Of a stretch of 64,000 bases of DNA, positions 17,430-24,638 are shown one piece after another; within the stretch, counting starts at the first letter, position 1; each line of letters opens with the position of its first letter. The notes under the pieces were generated by a model. That model had not been told where the DNA came from and searched no databases. It worked only from the letters and a program-made list of their open reading frames with translations. This stretch comes from Flavobacteriaceae bacterium (lineage in GTDB: Bacteria > Bacteroidota > Bacteroidia > Flavobacteriales > Flavobacteriaceae). The stretch spans positions 1 through 64,000 of the forward strand of contig JABDNT010000044.1 of assembly GCA_013043685.1 (NCBI GenBank), in the 5' to 3' direction. The translations under genes were made by a program, and so were the position numbers.

Positions 17430-18014
17430 TTAATTGGTTAAGATAATATTGTGTTTACTGATAACCTTTCTCAAATTAATTAGCGCATAACGCATTCTCC
17501 CAAGAGCTGTATTAATACTCACCCCGGTTTGCTCACTAATTTCTTTAAAACTCATATCCTTGTAAATACGCATGATAAGCACCTGTTTCTGATCTTCAGG
17601 AAGTTCTTCTATAAGCCTTCTTACATCACTTTCTACCTGTCCCTTAATCATTTGCTTCTCAACGTTGGGGTTCCCGTCACTTAATACCGAAAAGATGTTG
17701 AAATCATTATTGTTTTCAAACTTAGGCATGCGATTGTTCTTTCTGAAATGATCTATTACCAGATTGTGTGCGATCCTCATCACCCAGGGTAGAAATTTAC
17801 CTTCTTCGTTGTAAGCACCTCTTTTAAGAGTGTTAATTACTTTTATAAAGGTGTCCTGAAAAATATCCTCCGCAACATCGCGGTCGTATACCTTTGAATA
17901 GATAAAACTGAAAATTCTTTGTTTGTGGCGCGTTATAAGATCGCAAAGTGCAGATTCATTGCCTTTCATGTATGCGCTCACTAAATGCGCATCGGTGGTC
18001 GTTCTTTGCTTCAT
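17430..18014 (-). CDS. ECF RNA polymerase sigma factor
   Basis: A 194-residue sigma-70-family factor with region 2 (FIYSKVYDRDVAEDIFQDTFIKV, about 37-60, with a following FLPWVMRIAHNLVIDHFRK) and region 4 (LPEDQKQVLIMRIYKDMSFKEIS, then GVSINTALGRMRYAL), a helix-turn-helix that recognises the -35 box. No anti-sigma gene with a membrane helix is adjacent; the only neighbour in the same direction is a 50-residue ORF. Flavobacterial genomes have several such factors controlling envelope or growth programmes. Its regulon cannot be read from this window. Confidence 0.88.
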   Translation of the reverse strand: MKQRTTTDAHLVSAYMKGNESALCDLITRHKQRIFSFIYSKVYDRDVAEDIFQDTFIKVINTLKRGAYNEEGKFLPWVMRIAHNLVIDHFRKNNRMPKFENNNDFNIFSVLSDGNPNVEKQMIKGQVESDVRRLIEELPEDQKQVLIMRIYKDMSFKEISEQTGVSINTALGRMRYALINLRKVISKHNIILTN

Positions 18015-22134: not shown

Positions 22135-22246
22135 TGTCACTTCGAGTGATTTTGCGAAGCAAAATTGTATCGCGAAGGACTTTTTTAAAGTATTCTCAAT
22201 ACGATTCAACTGGGTTGAATCACTCGAGCGGACAATCGAAGTCATT
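22135..22246. repeat. Intergenic palindromic (REP-like) element
   Basis: The element begins TGTCACTTCGAGTGATT (22135) and ends with a similar sequence in inverse orientation (ATCACTCGAG... CGAAGTCATT, to about 22246). The inner part (GCGAAGCAAAATT, ATCGCGAAGGAC) also contains partial palindromes. Sequences with a TGTCATTTCGAGTGA core are frequent intergenic repeats in flavobacterial genomes. A related copy is at 23070. No coding function. Confidence 0.6.
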
Positions 22247-22289: not shown

Positions 22290-22305
22290 CTGGCACGGCT
22301 ATTGG
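22290..22305 (+). promoter_or_regulatory. Sigma-54-like promoter CTGGCACGGCTATTGG
   Basis: TGGCACG at 22291-22297 matches the sigma-54 -24 box exactly. After a 4-base spacer, TTGG at 22302-22305 replaces the -12 TTGC with a single mismatch in the C. It lies 67 bases before the ATG of the next gene. The same TTGGCACGG sequence occurs upstream of the neighbouring paralogue. Confidence 0.55.
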
Positions 22306-22372
22306 TTTTTACTAACAGAATAGCGTAAGCAGGCATCGCTCATAATGCCTCATAACCCAAAATACATTGATT

Positions 22373-22987
22373 ATGAAAAAAAGTATTTTACTCGTGGTAC
22401 TATTCCTTATGGGAATGACCACACAGACTTTTTCACAACGCAACAGAAATGTAAATCACAATCCGGGTAATTACGATCGCTATTACAATACGCATGAAAT
22501 TCGTTTTGTAGAAAATGGTGTACTGTATTCGGTGGCAGTGGACGGATCCTTTAATTTCCGTCAAATGTATCGCCCGTATAATTCCAATAGAGGAAGAAGG
22601 AACTTCAACACTGTTTATTACAATTCCGCTCCTGGGGCGGTAACTTATATCAACACCAGGCCCGTTGAACATTACAGAGTTCGATATGGAAGATATGGAC
22701 GCATTAAGAGTATTGGTCCGACATTGATCCGTTACAGACGAGATGGCCGTGTGAAGTCCATAGGATGTGTTGCAATGACCTACTACAGGGGATCACTCTC
22801 TACCGTAGGGAATCTCCAGATCCTGTACAATCGCAGAGGTAAGATTCGTAATACCATCGGACATGTAAACAGATACAATAAAAAGTTTTGGCACGATGAT
22901 TGGTATAGATATAATAGCGATCGGGATGAAGATGATTGGGACGATGATGACTGGGAAGACGATCGTGAACGAAGAAGAAAGAAATAA
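22373..22987 (+). CDS. Secreted Tyr/Arg-rich repeat protein (smaller paralogue)
   Basis: A 204-residue exported protein. The signal peptide ends near TFSQR. The body is rich in Tyr, Arg, Asn and Gly and contains degenerate copies of a unit like VRYGRYGRIKSIGPTLIRY, followed by RRDGRVKSIGCVAMTYYRG and LQILYNRRGKIRNTIG. The C-terminal 30 residues alternate blocks of acidic and basic residues (DDWDDDDWEDDRERRRKK). The start was taken at ATG 22373, since the in-frame TTG at 22367 has no support. The gene shares its repeat unit, a sigma-54-like upstream box and a downstream sequence motif with the next gene. No known domain and no function; it may be periplasmic or surface matrix. Confidence 0.75.
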   Translation: MKKSILLVVLFLMGMTTQTFSQRNRNVNHNPGNYDRYYNTHEIRFVENGVLYSVAVDGSFNFRQMYRPYNSNRGRRNFNTVYYNSAPGAVTYINTRPVEHYRVRYGRYGRIKSIGPTLIRYRRDGRVKSIGCVAMTYYRGSLSTVGNLQILYNRRGKIRNTIGHVNRYNKKFWHDDWYRYNSDRDEDDWDDDDWEDDRERRRKK

Positions 22988-22993
22988 TAATAT

Positions 22994-23014
22994 AGTTTTT
23001 TGGTTGGTTAGTTT
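22994..23014 (+). repeat. 3' sequence motif shared by the two repeat-protein genes (copy 1)
   Basis: AGTTTTTTGGTTGGTTAGTT follows the stop codon of this gene by 7 bases. Nearly the same string (one extra T) follows the stop of the next gene at 24576-24597. The identity outside coding sequence suggests either recent duplication of the transcription unit or a conserved 3' element. Confidence 0.7.
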
Positions 23015-23016
23015 TT

Positions 23017-23058
23017 AAATCCGTCGGATTCTCTAAAGGTCCGGCGGATTTTGTTTTT
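23017..23058 (+). terminator. Rho-independent terminator
   Basis: A 12-bp hairpin pairing AAATCCGTCGGA with TCCGGCGGATTT (one G-T pair) around an 11-base loop, followed by TGTTTTT. Confidence 0.75.
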
Positions 23059-23069
23059 AAGAGATTTTT

Positions 23070-23088
23070 CGTTTCACTCGAAATGACA
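23070..23088 (-). repeat. REP-like repeat core TGTCATTTCGAGTGAAACG
   Basis: Read on the minus strand this is TGTCATTTCGAGTGAAACG, followed by AAAAATCTC, a typical flavobacterial intergenic repeat. It matches the core at 22135 with one base difference in the first 15. It lies between the terminator and the promoter of the next gene. Confidence 0.55.
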
Positions 23089-23168
23089 TTCCCCTTTTCA
23101 CCAATCACTATTCACCTCTCACTACTCACCAGTTACCATCCCCACTAATAATCAGTACTTTACATTTT

Positions 23169-23183
23169 TGGCACGGTCTGTGT
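23169..23183 (+). promoter_or_regulatory. Sigma-54-like promoter TTGGCACGG...
   Basis: TGGCACG at 23169-23175 matches the -24 box exactly. The -12 position reads GTGT (23180-23183), a weak match to TTGC. The distance to the ATG at 23249 is 65 bases. Support comes mainly from its similarity to the box upstream of the paralogous gene. Confidence 0.4.
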
Positions 23184-23248
23184 ATTTAAATAAAATGTAT
23201 TGCTGACGCAACCAAAAGTGAAGCAAGTACAATTTAAAACCCAGAATT

Positions 23249-24574
23249 ATGAAAAAGTTAGTAACCCTAGTATTTGGAATCCTTTTGATGAGCATACCAG
23301 CTCAGGCTGCTTCCAGTGAAGCAAGCTCGGCTTCCTATTATGAGTATGACGGAAACGCCTATATCTTCATAGAAGGAGCTGTTGAATTTTCGGTATTTCC
23401 TGATGGACAATTCGACTTTGTGTATCTCGGCAGAGACGCCAGAGGAAATGTTAATGTGAACATTAACACCAACAACGTGAATCTCAATTTCAATTCGGGT
23501 TACAATTACGATCCTTTTGTTCAGTATGATGATTATGGAGCGGTAATTCAGATTGAGGATATCCCGATCTATTATGATAATTACGGACGTATCATCCAGG
23601 CTGGTAATACAGAGATCCGTTACAATAACAGACGGATAGTTCGTGTAGGAGGACTGCGTGTTTTCTATAATTATTATGGAAACTTTTCATACTGTACCGG
23701 GTTTATTAACCTGTGGACACCAAGATATATTTACCGCCCATGGCATGTGTGGTACGTGAGACCCTTCTATACAAGTTGCATTGTTTACGACTATCCTTAT
23801 AGACAGTTTTACAGGCCACACCGCTATCCCTACAACTATCACAGACAGCACTACAGAGGGCGTCGAGTAGCGTATAACAATGGTAGAAGAAACTTTTACA
23901 GGCCAGGAAGCCGTGTTCATTACAGAGATGGTAGAACGGCGGTTAACCGCGACTACAACCCGAATAGAAGAAACAGTATGGTTTCTGCGAATAGTGGCAG
24001 ACGTGATGGCCTGGTAGACAGAAAGAATAATAGAAATAGAAACAACAAAGTTGATAGATCGAGCTCCCTGAACAGGAAGAACGCAGTCTCGAAGCGAAGT
24101 GATAATATCGCTAACAATCGTGGTCGACCTGTATCGAACAAGGCTATCAATCGTGGTGCACCGACTACTAACCGGAAGAGTTCTTTAAATACGAACAAAC
24201 GAGGTAACAATCGTAAGGCTACTGTTAACAGAGGAAACACAAATACTCGTCCCTCTGTGAACTCGAACCGAAAAGTAACCAGATCTCGTCCTGCAGTAAG
24301 TTCGAACAGGGGTAACACCAAACGTAATTCTTCGGTGAACCGAAGCACACCATCACGAAACAAGAGTGTTGTTTCAAACAGGAATAACAGAACCAAGTCG
24401 AGCAGTCGTTCATATAAAAGTTCGAACAGTTCTAAAGTAAATAGAAACGCAACGGCATCAAGGTCCAGGTCGTCTTCAAATCGAAGCGCTAACGTATCAA
24501 GATCGAAGTCTTCCTCGAAAAGAAGTTCCGGTACAAAGCGCAGTAACTCACGACAAGGCCGTCGCGGCTTCTAA
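23249..24574 (+). CDS. Secreted Tyr-repeat protein with long Arg/Ser/Asn-rich basic tail
   Basis: A 441-residue exported protein. The signal peptide ends at PAQAA. Residues 30-200 are Tyr/Asn/Gly-rich with repeated units such as YYDNYGRIIQAGNTEIRYNN and RRIVRVGGLRVFYNYYGN, the same unit as in the preceding gene. Aromatic blocks (YRPWHVWYVRPFY) follow. The last ~230 residues are low complexity, almost only Arg, Ser, Asn, Lys, Thr and Val with no acidic residues for long stretches, giving a strongly positive charge. Such a tail on an exported protein suggests binding to polyanions (LPS, polysaccharide, extracellular DNA), but this is inference. I recognise no domain. The gene follows its paralogue and a shared 3' motif. 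Confidence 0.75.
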   Translation: MKKLVTLVFGILLMSIPAQAASSEASSASYYEYDGNAYIFIEGAVEFSVFPDGQFDFVYLGRDARGNVNVNINTNNVNLNFNSGYNYDPFVQYDDYGAVIQIEDIPIYYDNYGRIIQAGNTEIRYNNRRIVRVGGLRVFYNYYGNFSYCTGFINLWTPRYIYRPWHVWYVRPFYTSCIVYDYPYRQFYRPHRYPYNYHRQHYRGRRVAYNNGRRNFYRPGSRVHYRDGRTAVNRDYNPNRRNSMVSANSGRRDGLVDRKNNRNRNNKVDRSSSLNRKNAVSKRSDNIANNRGRPVSNKAINRGAPTTNRKSSLNTNKRGNNRKATVNRGNTNTRPSVNSNRKVTRSRPAVSSNRGNTKRNSSVNRSTPSRNKSVVSNRNNRTKSSSRSYKSSNSSKVNRNATASRSRSSSNRSANVSRSKSSSKRSSGTKRSNSRQGRRGF

Positions 24575-24575
24575 C

Positions 24576-24597
24576 AGTTTTTTTGGTTGGTTAGTTT
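24576..24597 (+). repeat. 3' sequence motif shared by the two repeat-protein genes (copy 2)
   Basis: The string AGTTTTTTTGGTTGGTTAGT starts 2 bases after the stop codon and is nearly identical to the copy at 22994-23014. Confidence 0.7.
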
Positions 24598-24638
24598 GAA
24601 ACTCTCGCAATCCGCATCTGGCGGAGGGCGGGAGTTTC
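24598..24638. terminator. Two-part hairpin between converging genes
   Basis: An 11-bp outer stem (GAAACTCTCGC with GCGGGAGTTTC) encloses a second 5-bp stem (TCCGC with GCGGA). There is no T-run directly after it on either strand. Its position between converging genes suggests a role in ending transcription. Confidence 0.6.

Follow-up and report, generated by a model that had tools for sequence, protein, structure and literature searches.

A candidate sigma-54-driven family of small RNA units with a shared 3′ tag in Flavobacteriaceae

Sigma-54-dependent small RNAs (sRNAs) and sRNAs derived from the 3′ ends of mRNAs are both known kinds of RNA. Qrr sRNAs are sigma-54-dependent, and the sRNA made from the 3′ untranslated region (UTR) of glnA mRNA, GlnZ, is reportedly linked to sigma-54; both belong to another phylum and are Hfq-based, and we know of no tag that either has in common with several mRNAs. 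Here we analyse a 64-kb window (positions 1 to 64,000 of contig JABDNT010000044.1, assembly GCA_013043685.1) of a Flavobacteriaceae genome of 3.0 Mb in 83 contigs, in which two adjacent genes for secreted proteins, gene 1 and gene 2, each have a sigma-54-type promoter and end in the same 19-base sequence, which we call the tag. Short units with this promoter, tag and terminator also stand alone in relatives, and resemble the glnA sRNA and Qrr as candidate sRNAs tied to sigma-54 transcription; the glnA sRNA comes from an mRNA 3′ end (PMC9731577). The best explanation of these observations, in which we place somewhat better than even confidence, is a sigma-54-driven RNA module of Flavobacteriaceae, in which sRNAs that stand alone or lie in mRNA 3′ ends share one 3′ tag.

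Closer relatives offer two further comparisons. Bacteroides thetaiotaomicron has FopS/GibS small RNAs and an RNA recognition motif (RRM) protein, RbpB. The FopS RNAs are multicopy and are bound by RbpB; ahead of their terminator lies a conserved single-stranded stretch, and one of them derives from a 3′ UTR (PMC11697453). The FopS genes, described from Bacteroidaceae, have sigma-ABfr and PM2 promoters (PMC11697453), whereas the present units are of sigma-54 type, and the present tag, unlike FopS, is common to several mRNAs. The loci that we examined have no Rfam match to FopS, although whether the Rfam release contains a FopS model is not established. Within the same family, the mapped sigma-54 (SM4) regulon of Flavobacterium psychrophilum places -24/-12 promoters on chaperone and envelope-stress genes, on genes for exported proteins of unknown function and on one putative regulatory sRNA, Rfp36, and the available part of the account makes no mention of a shared 3′ tag (PMC9723704). 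Rfp36, a point in favour of the proposed module, may be a member of the unit family already detected in expression.

Conserved promoters and 3′ tags of the gene pair

Both genes of the pair (Table 1) are preceded by boxes of the TGGCACG type, with TGGCA at positions 22291 and 23169. The weight of these boxes comes from their conservation in relatives, because the count in the window alone is at chance (TTGGCACG found twice against 1.23 expected). We collected 193 stretches from the best and next-best gene-2 matches, a choice in which closer kin are over-represented; gene 2 is present in 190, which come to 165 distinct loci when copies identical over their first 300 nt are counted once. The sequence TTGGCACGN4TTG lies within 210 nt upstream of gene 2 in 158 of these 165 loci with at most one mismatch and in 164 with at most two, and 220 nt of coding sequence from the same loci contain it 0 and 3 times, respectively. 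TGGCA and the -12 TG (-13 TG) are invariant in 164 of 164 tallied gene-2 boxes, at sigma-54 spacing, and most gene-1 copies in relatives have a box ~51–113 nt ahead of the ATG. A genome scan with the classical consensus TTGGCACGN4TTGCT (at most two mismatches) gave 52 matches against 48 in the reversed control and is uninformative because the -12 C is not kept. The rpoN gene, whose absence would have spoken against the sigma-54-type control proposed in an earlier note on this DNA, is present in the genome (PF00309 match, E 2e-14). Because of the box conservation, the presence of rpoN and the F. psychrophilum regulon, we take the boxes of gene 1 and gene 2 to be predicted sigma-54 promoters; the chaperones, envelope-stress genes and exported proteins in the described part of that regulon also agree with the envelope or stress setting that the note had suggested (PMC9723704).

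Table 1 Features of the gene pair and its putative RNA elements in the window
Feature	Position	Strand	Description or basis
Sigma-54-type -24/-12 promoter of gene 1, CTGGCACGG	22290..22305	+	Sequence; predicted transcription start ~22317
Gene 1 leader, H-type pseudoknot (AGCG x CGCT, AGGCAT x ATGCCT)	22322..22350	+	19-sequence alignment
Gene 1	22373..22987	+	Secreted protein of 204 aa with a YD-repeat-like beta meander and an acidic/aromatic tail
Internal sigma-54-type box TTGGCACGATGATTG	22888..22904	+	Gene 1 3′ end, last 34 codons; codes W-H-D-D-W
Putative nested small RNA: gene 1 3′ end, tag, terminator	22915..23055	+	Predicted from internal box, tag and units in relatives without gene 1
Gene 1 3′ tag	22996..23014	+	19 bases identical to gene 2 tag; 8 nt after stop
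Intrinsic terminator hairpin, gene 1 / putative nested small RNA	23017..23051	+	Fold -19.2 kcal/mol
Sigma-54-type promoter of gene 2, TTGGCACGG	23168..23182	+	Relatives; predicted start ~23195
Gene 2 leader hairpin, TGTATTGCT x AGCAAGTACA	23196..23231	+	Strict form in relatives
Gene 2	23249..24574	+	441-aa secreted protein; N-terminal part conserved, tail low-complexity Arg/Ser/Asn
Gene 2 3′ tag	24579..24597	+	4 nt after stop; conserved in relatives
Intrinsic terminator hairpin, gene 2	24598..24638	+	Fold -29.3 kcal/mol

The near-identical sequence that had been noticed after both stop codons proved to be a run of 19 identical bases, TTTTTTGGTTGGTTAGTTT. With up to three mismatches the tag matches three times in the window against 0.06 expected, and genome-wide its 17-base core has two exact matches, both in the pair, and one with a single mismatch. 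In relatives, TTTTGGTTGGTTAG with at most one mismatch follows the gene-2 stop within 60 nt in 137 of 164 distinct loci (151 at two mismatches), at a median distance of 5 nt, and at the coding-sequence end of the same 164 loci it is found in none at either threshold. The loop of the gene-2 terminator, TGCCTCAAAGCA, is conserved over many genera (for example L110, L123 and L150), more than termination should need. The earlier note had not included the terminator hairpins behind both tags, a third box inside gene 1 or the RNA side of the locus.

Stand-alone units of box, tag and terminator

Upstream of gene 2, the place taken by gene 1 in the window can be filled in other ways. Among the 165 distinct loci, 51 have a short unit without gene 1, 22 have gene 1 with the tag, 21 have gene 1 without the tag, 66 have neither and 5 are of another kind or too short; other filters give 52, 21 + 1, 22, 67 and, for short stretches, 2. 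Each unit consists of a sigma-54 box, 40–105 nt of spacer, the tag and a terminator, with no conserved open reading frame (ORF). A box lies 20–140 nt ahead of the tag in 53 of 56 tags upstream of gene 2 that are not carried by gene 1, compared with 1 of 138 gene-2 3′ tags and 210 of 6,600 random stretches. In 22 units of Aequorivita type the box, tag and terminator are near-invariant whereas the spacer differs freely from unit to unit in both sequence and length, and compensatory changes affect 6 of 25 predicted pairs, all within the terminator. An exact pattern for the unit, searched genome-wide, matches in 96 of 397 family genomes and 66 of 237 genera, with no match for the reversed pattern; at least one of these matches is embedded in gene 1 (L412). 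All 30 units fetched from the pattern matches have a 3′ hairpin (below -8 kcal/mol in 60 nt). One locus carries two tandem box, tag and terminator units ~207 nt apart (L288:1590-1864).

Among the fetched units, 21 of 30 form a structured class with no gene-1 or gene-2 relative within ~1.5 kb on either side. Their plan is an apical hairpin with the loop GUGGUUAC, in most cases a CAUA run, then the tag and the terminator; GUGGUUAC is invariant in 21 of 21. Compensatory changes occur in 13 of 19 predicted pairs, with covariation in both hairpin and terminator. All 21 units have the UGGUUA of the tag a second time, in the loop (shuffled mean 1.1). No Rfam release 15 family matches the structured class above its curated score, and across all Rfam searches of our loci only DUF805b and tRNA exceeded theirs. 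We read the structured-class units as candidate small RNA genes, and units of this family are very probably transcribed.

Instead of functional RNAs, the short units could be small-peptide genes or what is left of a decaying gene 1. Those upstream of gene 2 do occupy the place of gene 1 in sister genomes and have a CCGTC terminator arm in common with it, and short sense ORFs overlap many of the fetched units; for a single unit, a peptide is possible. The free spacer between near-invariant box, tag and terminator in the 22 Aequorivita-type units argues against this reading, as does the frame through the structured-class loop (..EWLL), which is closed a few codons upstream and has no start in L391, L393, L395, L398 and L415 and is open past the loop in others. 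Since the frame is closed in some members and open in others, the structured class has no conserved peptide, and we consider it distinctly improbable that the units are peptide genes or gene remnants.

A putative small RNA gene nested in gene 1

Small RNA-like units also appear to lie within gene 1 itself. The pair occurs together in relatives, with gene 1 upstream in 44 of the 165 distinct gene-2 loci (22 + 21 + 1) within the stretch examined. Among these 44 distinct gene-1 copies, 22, including that of the window, have both an internal sigma-54-type box and the tag, 21 have neither and one has the tag alone. The internal box lies in the last 24–46 codons of the 22 copies, always with the tag present. 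Its histidine codon is CAC in 21 of 22 copies compared with 54 of 132 for the remaining histidine codons of the same genes, and a tryptophan–histidine pair alone does not force this codon, because the conserved P-W-H of gene 2 uses CAC in only 95 of 173 cases.

The terminator arm CCGTC is present in 15 of 22 gene-1 tags, 14 of 52 stand-alone units and 1 of 137 gene-2 tags, a distribution in favour of a common origin for the stand-alone units and the 3′ end of gene 1. In sister genomes gene 1 is missing while a box, tag and terminator unit is kept at the same place, and on a gene-2 tree (FastTree, with many weak branches) gene 1 with a nested unit and the unit alone interchange at least five times. 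Taken together, these observations indicate that gene 1 probably harbours a small RNA gene nested in its 3′ end. Several lineages appear to have kept this RNA gene after losing gene 1, with the reverse order also possible.

The tag behind unrelated genes

The tag extends beyond the pair and the short units. With at most one mismatch the 19-mer matches in 92 of 299 genomes, and the reversed control matches in 23 (hand count). We inspected 71 tag-match loci, in sets of 31 and 40 with four places in both. The tag and a hairpin lie behind genes of a ~305-aa lipoprotein-like family (L082, L266, L267, L273, L277, L281, L282 and L289), which in L082, L281, L282 and L289 also have a sigma-54-type box (at most one mismatch) upstream, and behind the gene for a Spy-like 160-aa protein (L279). 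Both names are our own reading, and neither L282 nor the Spy-like L346 is matched by Pfam or NCBIfam. In L273 (G287:C1) the stop codon of the lipoprotein-like gene is followed first by a sigma-54-type box and then by the tag, an arrangement that looks like the insertion of a small RNA promoter into the 3′ UTR. A profile, R1, adds ClpB (L344) and others as tag-bearing; because RNAalifold found no common pair among 44 mixed tags, R1 is a sequence-only model in which weaker matches are mixed. The source genome contains five exact TTTGGTTRGTTAGTT matches, all ahead of strong hairpins, behind the pair and the genes for Hsp20, an acyl-CoA dehydrogenase and a DUF350 protein. The tag thus marks a limited and heterogeneous set of 3′ ends, with stress and envelope genes among them, and its association with sigma-54 is not strict.

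Other matches fall outside this class. Of the 71 inspected loci, 19 resemble chance or are unexplained, with no box in reach and no clear hairpin (L006, L070, L071, L076, L079, L080, L092 and L095 in the first set; L257, L258, L259, L262, L264, L270, L272, L274, L275, L280 and L291 in the second), and L271, L278 and L294 have a hairpin and no box. L071 and L092 resemble each other, and both lie antisense to an apparent glycosyltransferase start, which we considered as a possible target. A tag variant, TTTGGTTAGTTAGTTGAAA, with a terminator follows hsp20 in L330 (source genome, C67:4995) and L331–L334, from five genomes of the genus fetched out of seven searched. A CATATGGTTAGTTTGGTTAGTTTG-type tag with hairpin occurs six times within ~17 kb of one contig in L327 (G017:C7:99800-117800).

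This distribution bears on two simpler accounts of the tag. It might be the sequence-preferred front of certain strong terminators, such as a pause or anti-readthrough element or a block to 3′ exonucleases, with no role in trans and with the units as leftovers or leader-like transcripts. Such a role fits the hairpin that directly follows conserved tags and the functional mixture of the genes ahead of them. The tag is nevertheless not a general part of terminators, because the source genome has only the five exact TTTGGTTRGTTAGTT matches, and leftovers would not be expected to retain promoters, as the short units do, or a covarying hairpin, as one class does. We therefore regard the terminator account as unlikely. 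The second account is that of the earlier note, which read the conserved non-coding parts as a sign that a whole transcription unit was duplicated or is under common control; in its strict form, a single duplication copied the promoter and the gene along with the 3′ motif, which would survive as a relic. The proteins are indeed paralogous and both genes have the box and the motif; paralogy and sigma-54-type control stand. The use of the non-coding parts as evidence of duplication does not: the motif is still identical where the proteins have fallen to 28% identity, it is absent from distant gene-1 copies but present behind gene 2, and it is no relic because it also lies behind unrelated genes and in stand-alone units. 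Duplication of the entire unit as the origin of the motif is thus very hard to credit.

Structured 5′ leaders

The gene-1 leader contains a predicted pseudoknot directly behind the predicted start. In an alignment of 19 kin sequences, 96.1% of cells are paired, 18 are double-change cells and the covariation score is 0.285, and none of 500 shuffles reached any of these values; 12 of 500 shuffles reached the number of double-change pairs (3), and 214 of 500 reached that of pair types. These 19 come from 43 leaders, after omission of 21 of DUF805b type and of L178, L200 and L242; L127, which has no AGCG, was also omitted from the gene-1 leaders. DUF805b RNA (RF02914) is found in 9 of 19 loci of more distant relatives, 28–31 nt behind the box (for example L142:5026-5058 and L158:5066-5098). 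The window leader has the same placement, an AGCG opening and a pseudoknot, but the RF02914 model does not match it, and a search up to E 1 gave no match to any Rfam family, DUF805b included; we therefore do not assign it to DUF805b. The RF02914 family may mark sigma-54 leaders. In the gene-2 leader, the strict hairpin form TGTAY..GTACA is present in 21 of 165 leaders, and looser forms are seen by eye.

Gene content and distribution of the pair

The proteins of gene 1 and gene 2 share 28% identity over 134 columns (BLASTP, E 6e-7), in an alignment that covers the Y-G-R-I repeats and so bears out the Tyr/Gly repeat unit described earlier; by sequence, the genes are old paralogs. Both N-termini resemble type I signal peptides, judged by eye, in agreement with the signal peptides first proposed, and the view that neither protein has a known domain also held, since neither Pfam nor NCBIfam gave a match up to E 1. 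At E 0.01, Pfam matched 0 of 50 gene-2 members and 1 of 37 gene-1 relatives (DUF1827). AlphaFold models gene 1 as a beta meander with good confidence only around residues 101–165 (predicted local distance difference test (pLDDT) 82–90 at 101–160). Structural comparison relates this model weakly to Rhs and teneurin chains (Z at most 6.4 and mostly 5–6; Foldseek E never below 0.2), a likeness that may reflect only a common arrangement, and neither protein nor any of the relatives searched matches the YD-repeat Pfam families. For the part of gene 2 that was modelled, mean pLDDT is 49.8 and no usable model resulted; the PDB holds no sequence relatives of the pair beyond a single weak match at E 0.1. 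Both appear to be surface proteins that are secreted, consist of repeats and end in low-complexity tails.

The gene-2 N-terminal part has relatives in 239 of 299 family genomes. The nearest named relatives are all Flavobacteriaceae (Flavobacterium and Flavobacteriaceae metagenome-assembled genomes, Aureitalea and Altibacter), and in an order-wide draw of 196 genomes, whose share outside the family is not fully listed, all 20 with a gene-2 relative belong to Flavobacteriaceae. Upstream of the pair lie uvrA and a gene whose product has a type IX sorting tail, and near uvrA the minus strand carries a gene for an extracytoplasmic function-type sigma factor (17430-18014; Sigma70_r2 and r4). Short stretches around TCACTCGA / TTCGAGTGA on both flanks of gene 1 (22140-22240 and 23062-23090) resemble a dispersed palindromic repeat.

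Discussion

Promoters, tag, terminators, stand-alone units and the coupling of internal box and tag are established by sequence conservation, and from this frame we infer RNA production, action in trans and a binding partner of the tag. Each mRNA of the pair would start at a -24/-12 promoter and carry a small structured leader, the reading frame of a secreted protein, and the 3′ tag (a U-run and GGUUGGUUAG) with an intrinsic terminator. The internal box of gene 1 would start a transcript of ~140 nt that ends at the gene-1 terminator, and the stand-alone units, with their own sigma-54 promoters and the same tag as 3′ part, would be small RNA genes. Under envelope stress, sigma-54 and an activator would most likely switch on the secreted proteins together with the tag-bearing RNAs. 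The working part would be the single-stranded tag beside the terminator, acting as a pairing seed or as a site for an RRM-type RNA-binding protein, and tagged mRNAs and small RNAs would then share one handling pathway. An RRM-protein site is considered because Hfq was found in 0 of 299 family genomes; given this result, the single RRM protein in the source genome and the RbpB–FopS precedent, we favour a shared RNA-binding factor and a shared seed about evenly.

Several observations weigh against this module. The classical -12 C occurs in only 5 of 164 boxes, and the window has GG and GT. Twenty-seven of 164 gene-2 copies have no tag at one mismatch and 13 have none at two, and 21 of the 44 gene-1 copies lack internal box and tag alike. 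For the coupling of box and tag and for the CAC codon, Fisher values of 2e-11 and 8e-7 ignore kinship and are too good, since relatives are counted as independent and the labels cluster on the gene-2 tree. The source genome has no exact-pattern unit, because its internal box lies too far from the tag. Sense ORFs of at least 30 codons (ATG, GTG or TTG starts) overlap 16 of the 30 fetched units, mostly with 31–58 codons (that of L412 is gene 1), and 4 of 53 units upstream of gene 2; because none is conserved, these overlaps leave our estimates for transcription, nesting and action in trans unchanged. The UGGUUA repeat outside the tag is seen in 0 of 53 gene-2-upstream units. In the source genome, no box (at most two mismatches) precedes the tag-followed Hsp20 and DUF350 genes; for the tagged acyl-CoA dehydrogenase gene, the true start may fall outside the stretch searched. 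A search of the same genome for antisense targets of the tag core, with at most two mismatches, gave 40 matches against 19 for the reversed sequence; the clear ones are 3′ tags and form no target class, and a conserved antisense target of the tag was not found. We give action of the tag in trans about an even chance.

A more far-reaching version of the module is conceivable, and we hold it only tentatively, with doubt outweighing belief: the tag would be a regulon-wide RNA address, placed on unrelated stress and envelope mRNAs and on sigma-54 small RNAs and recognized by one reader, perhaps an RRM protein, with the small RNAs tuning the fate or place of tagged mRNAs by competition. Gene 1 would carry such an RNA gene in its coding 3′ end, and several lineages that lost the protein would have kept the RNA.

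The openly readable literature that we searched contained no description of the tag or the units. As far as these searches show, what is new is the unit family, a tag common to small RNA-like units and several mRNAs, and a promoter nested in coding sequence and kept with the tag. Post-transcriptional control in Flavobacteriaceae, where no Hfq was found in the 299 genomes surveyed, is little known. The tag offers a direct handle on it, because it names a set of RNAs and the type of their promoter and can serve as bait in the search for a reader factor. The locus also provides an apparent case of a small RNA gene that lies inside coding sequence and is retained where the protein gene is missing. 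The occurrence of one tag on mRNAs and on small RNA-like units suggests that RNA control in Flavobacteriaceae includes a layer not described so far.

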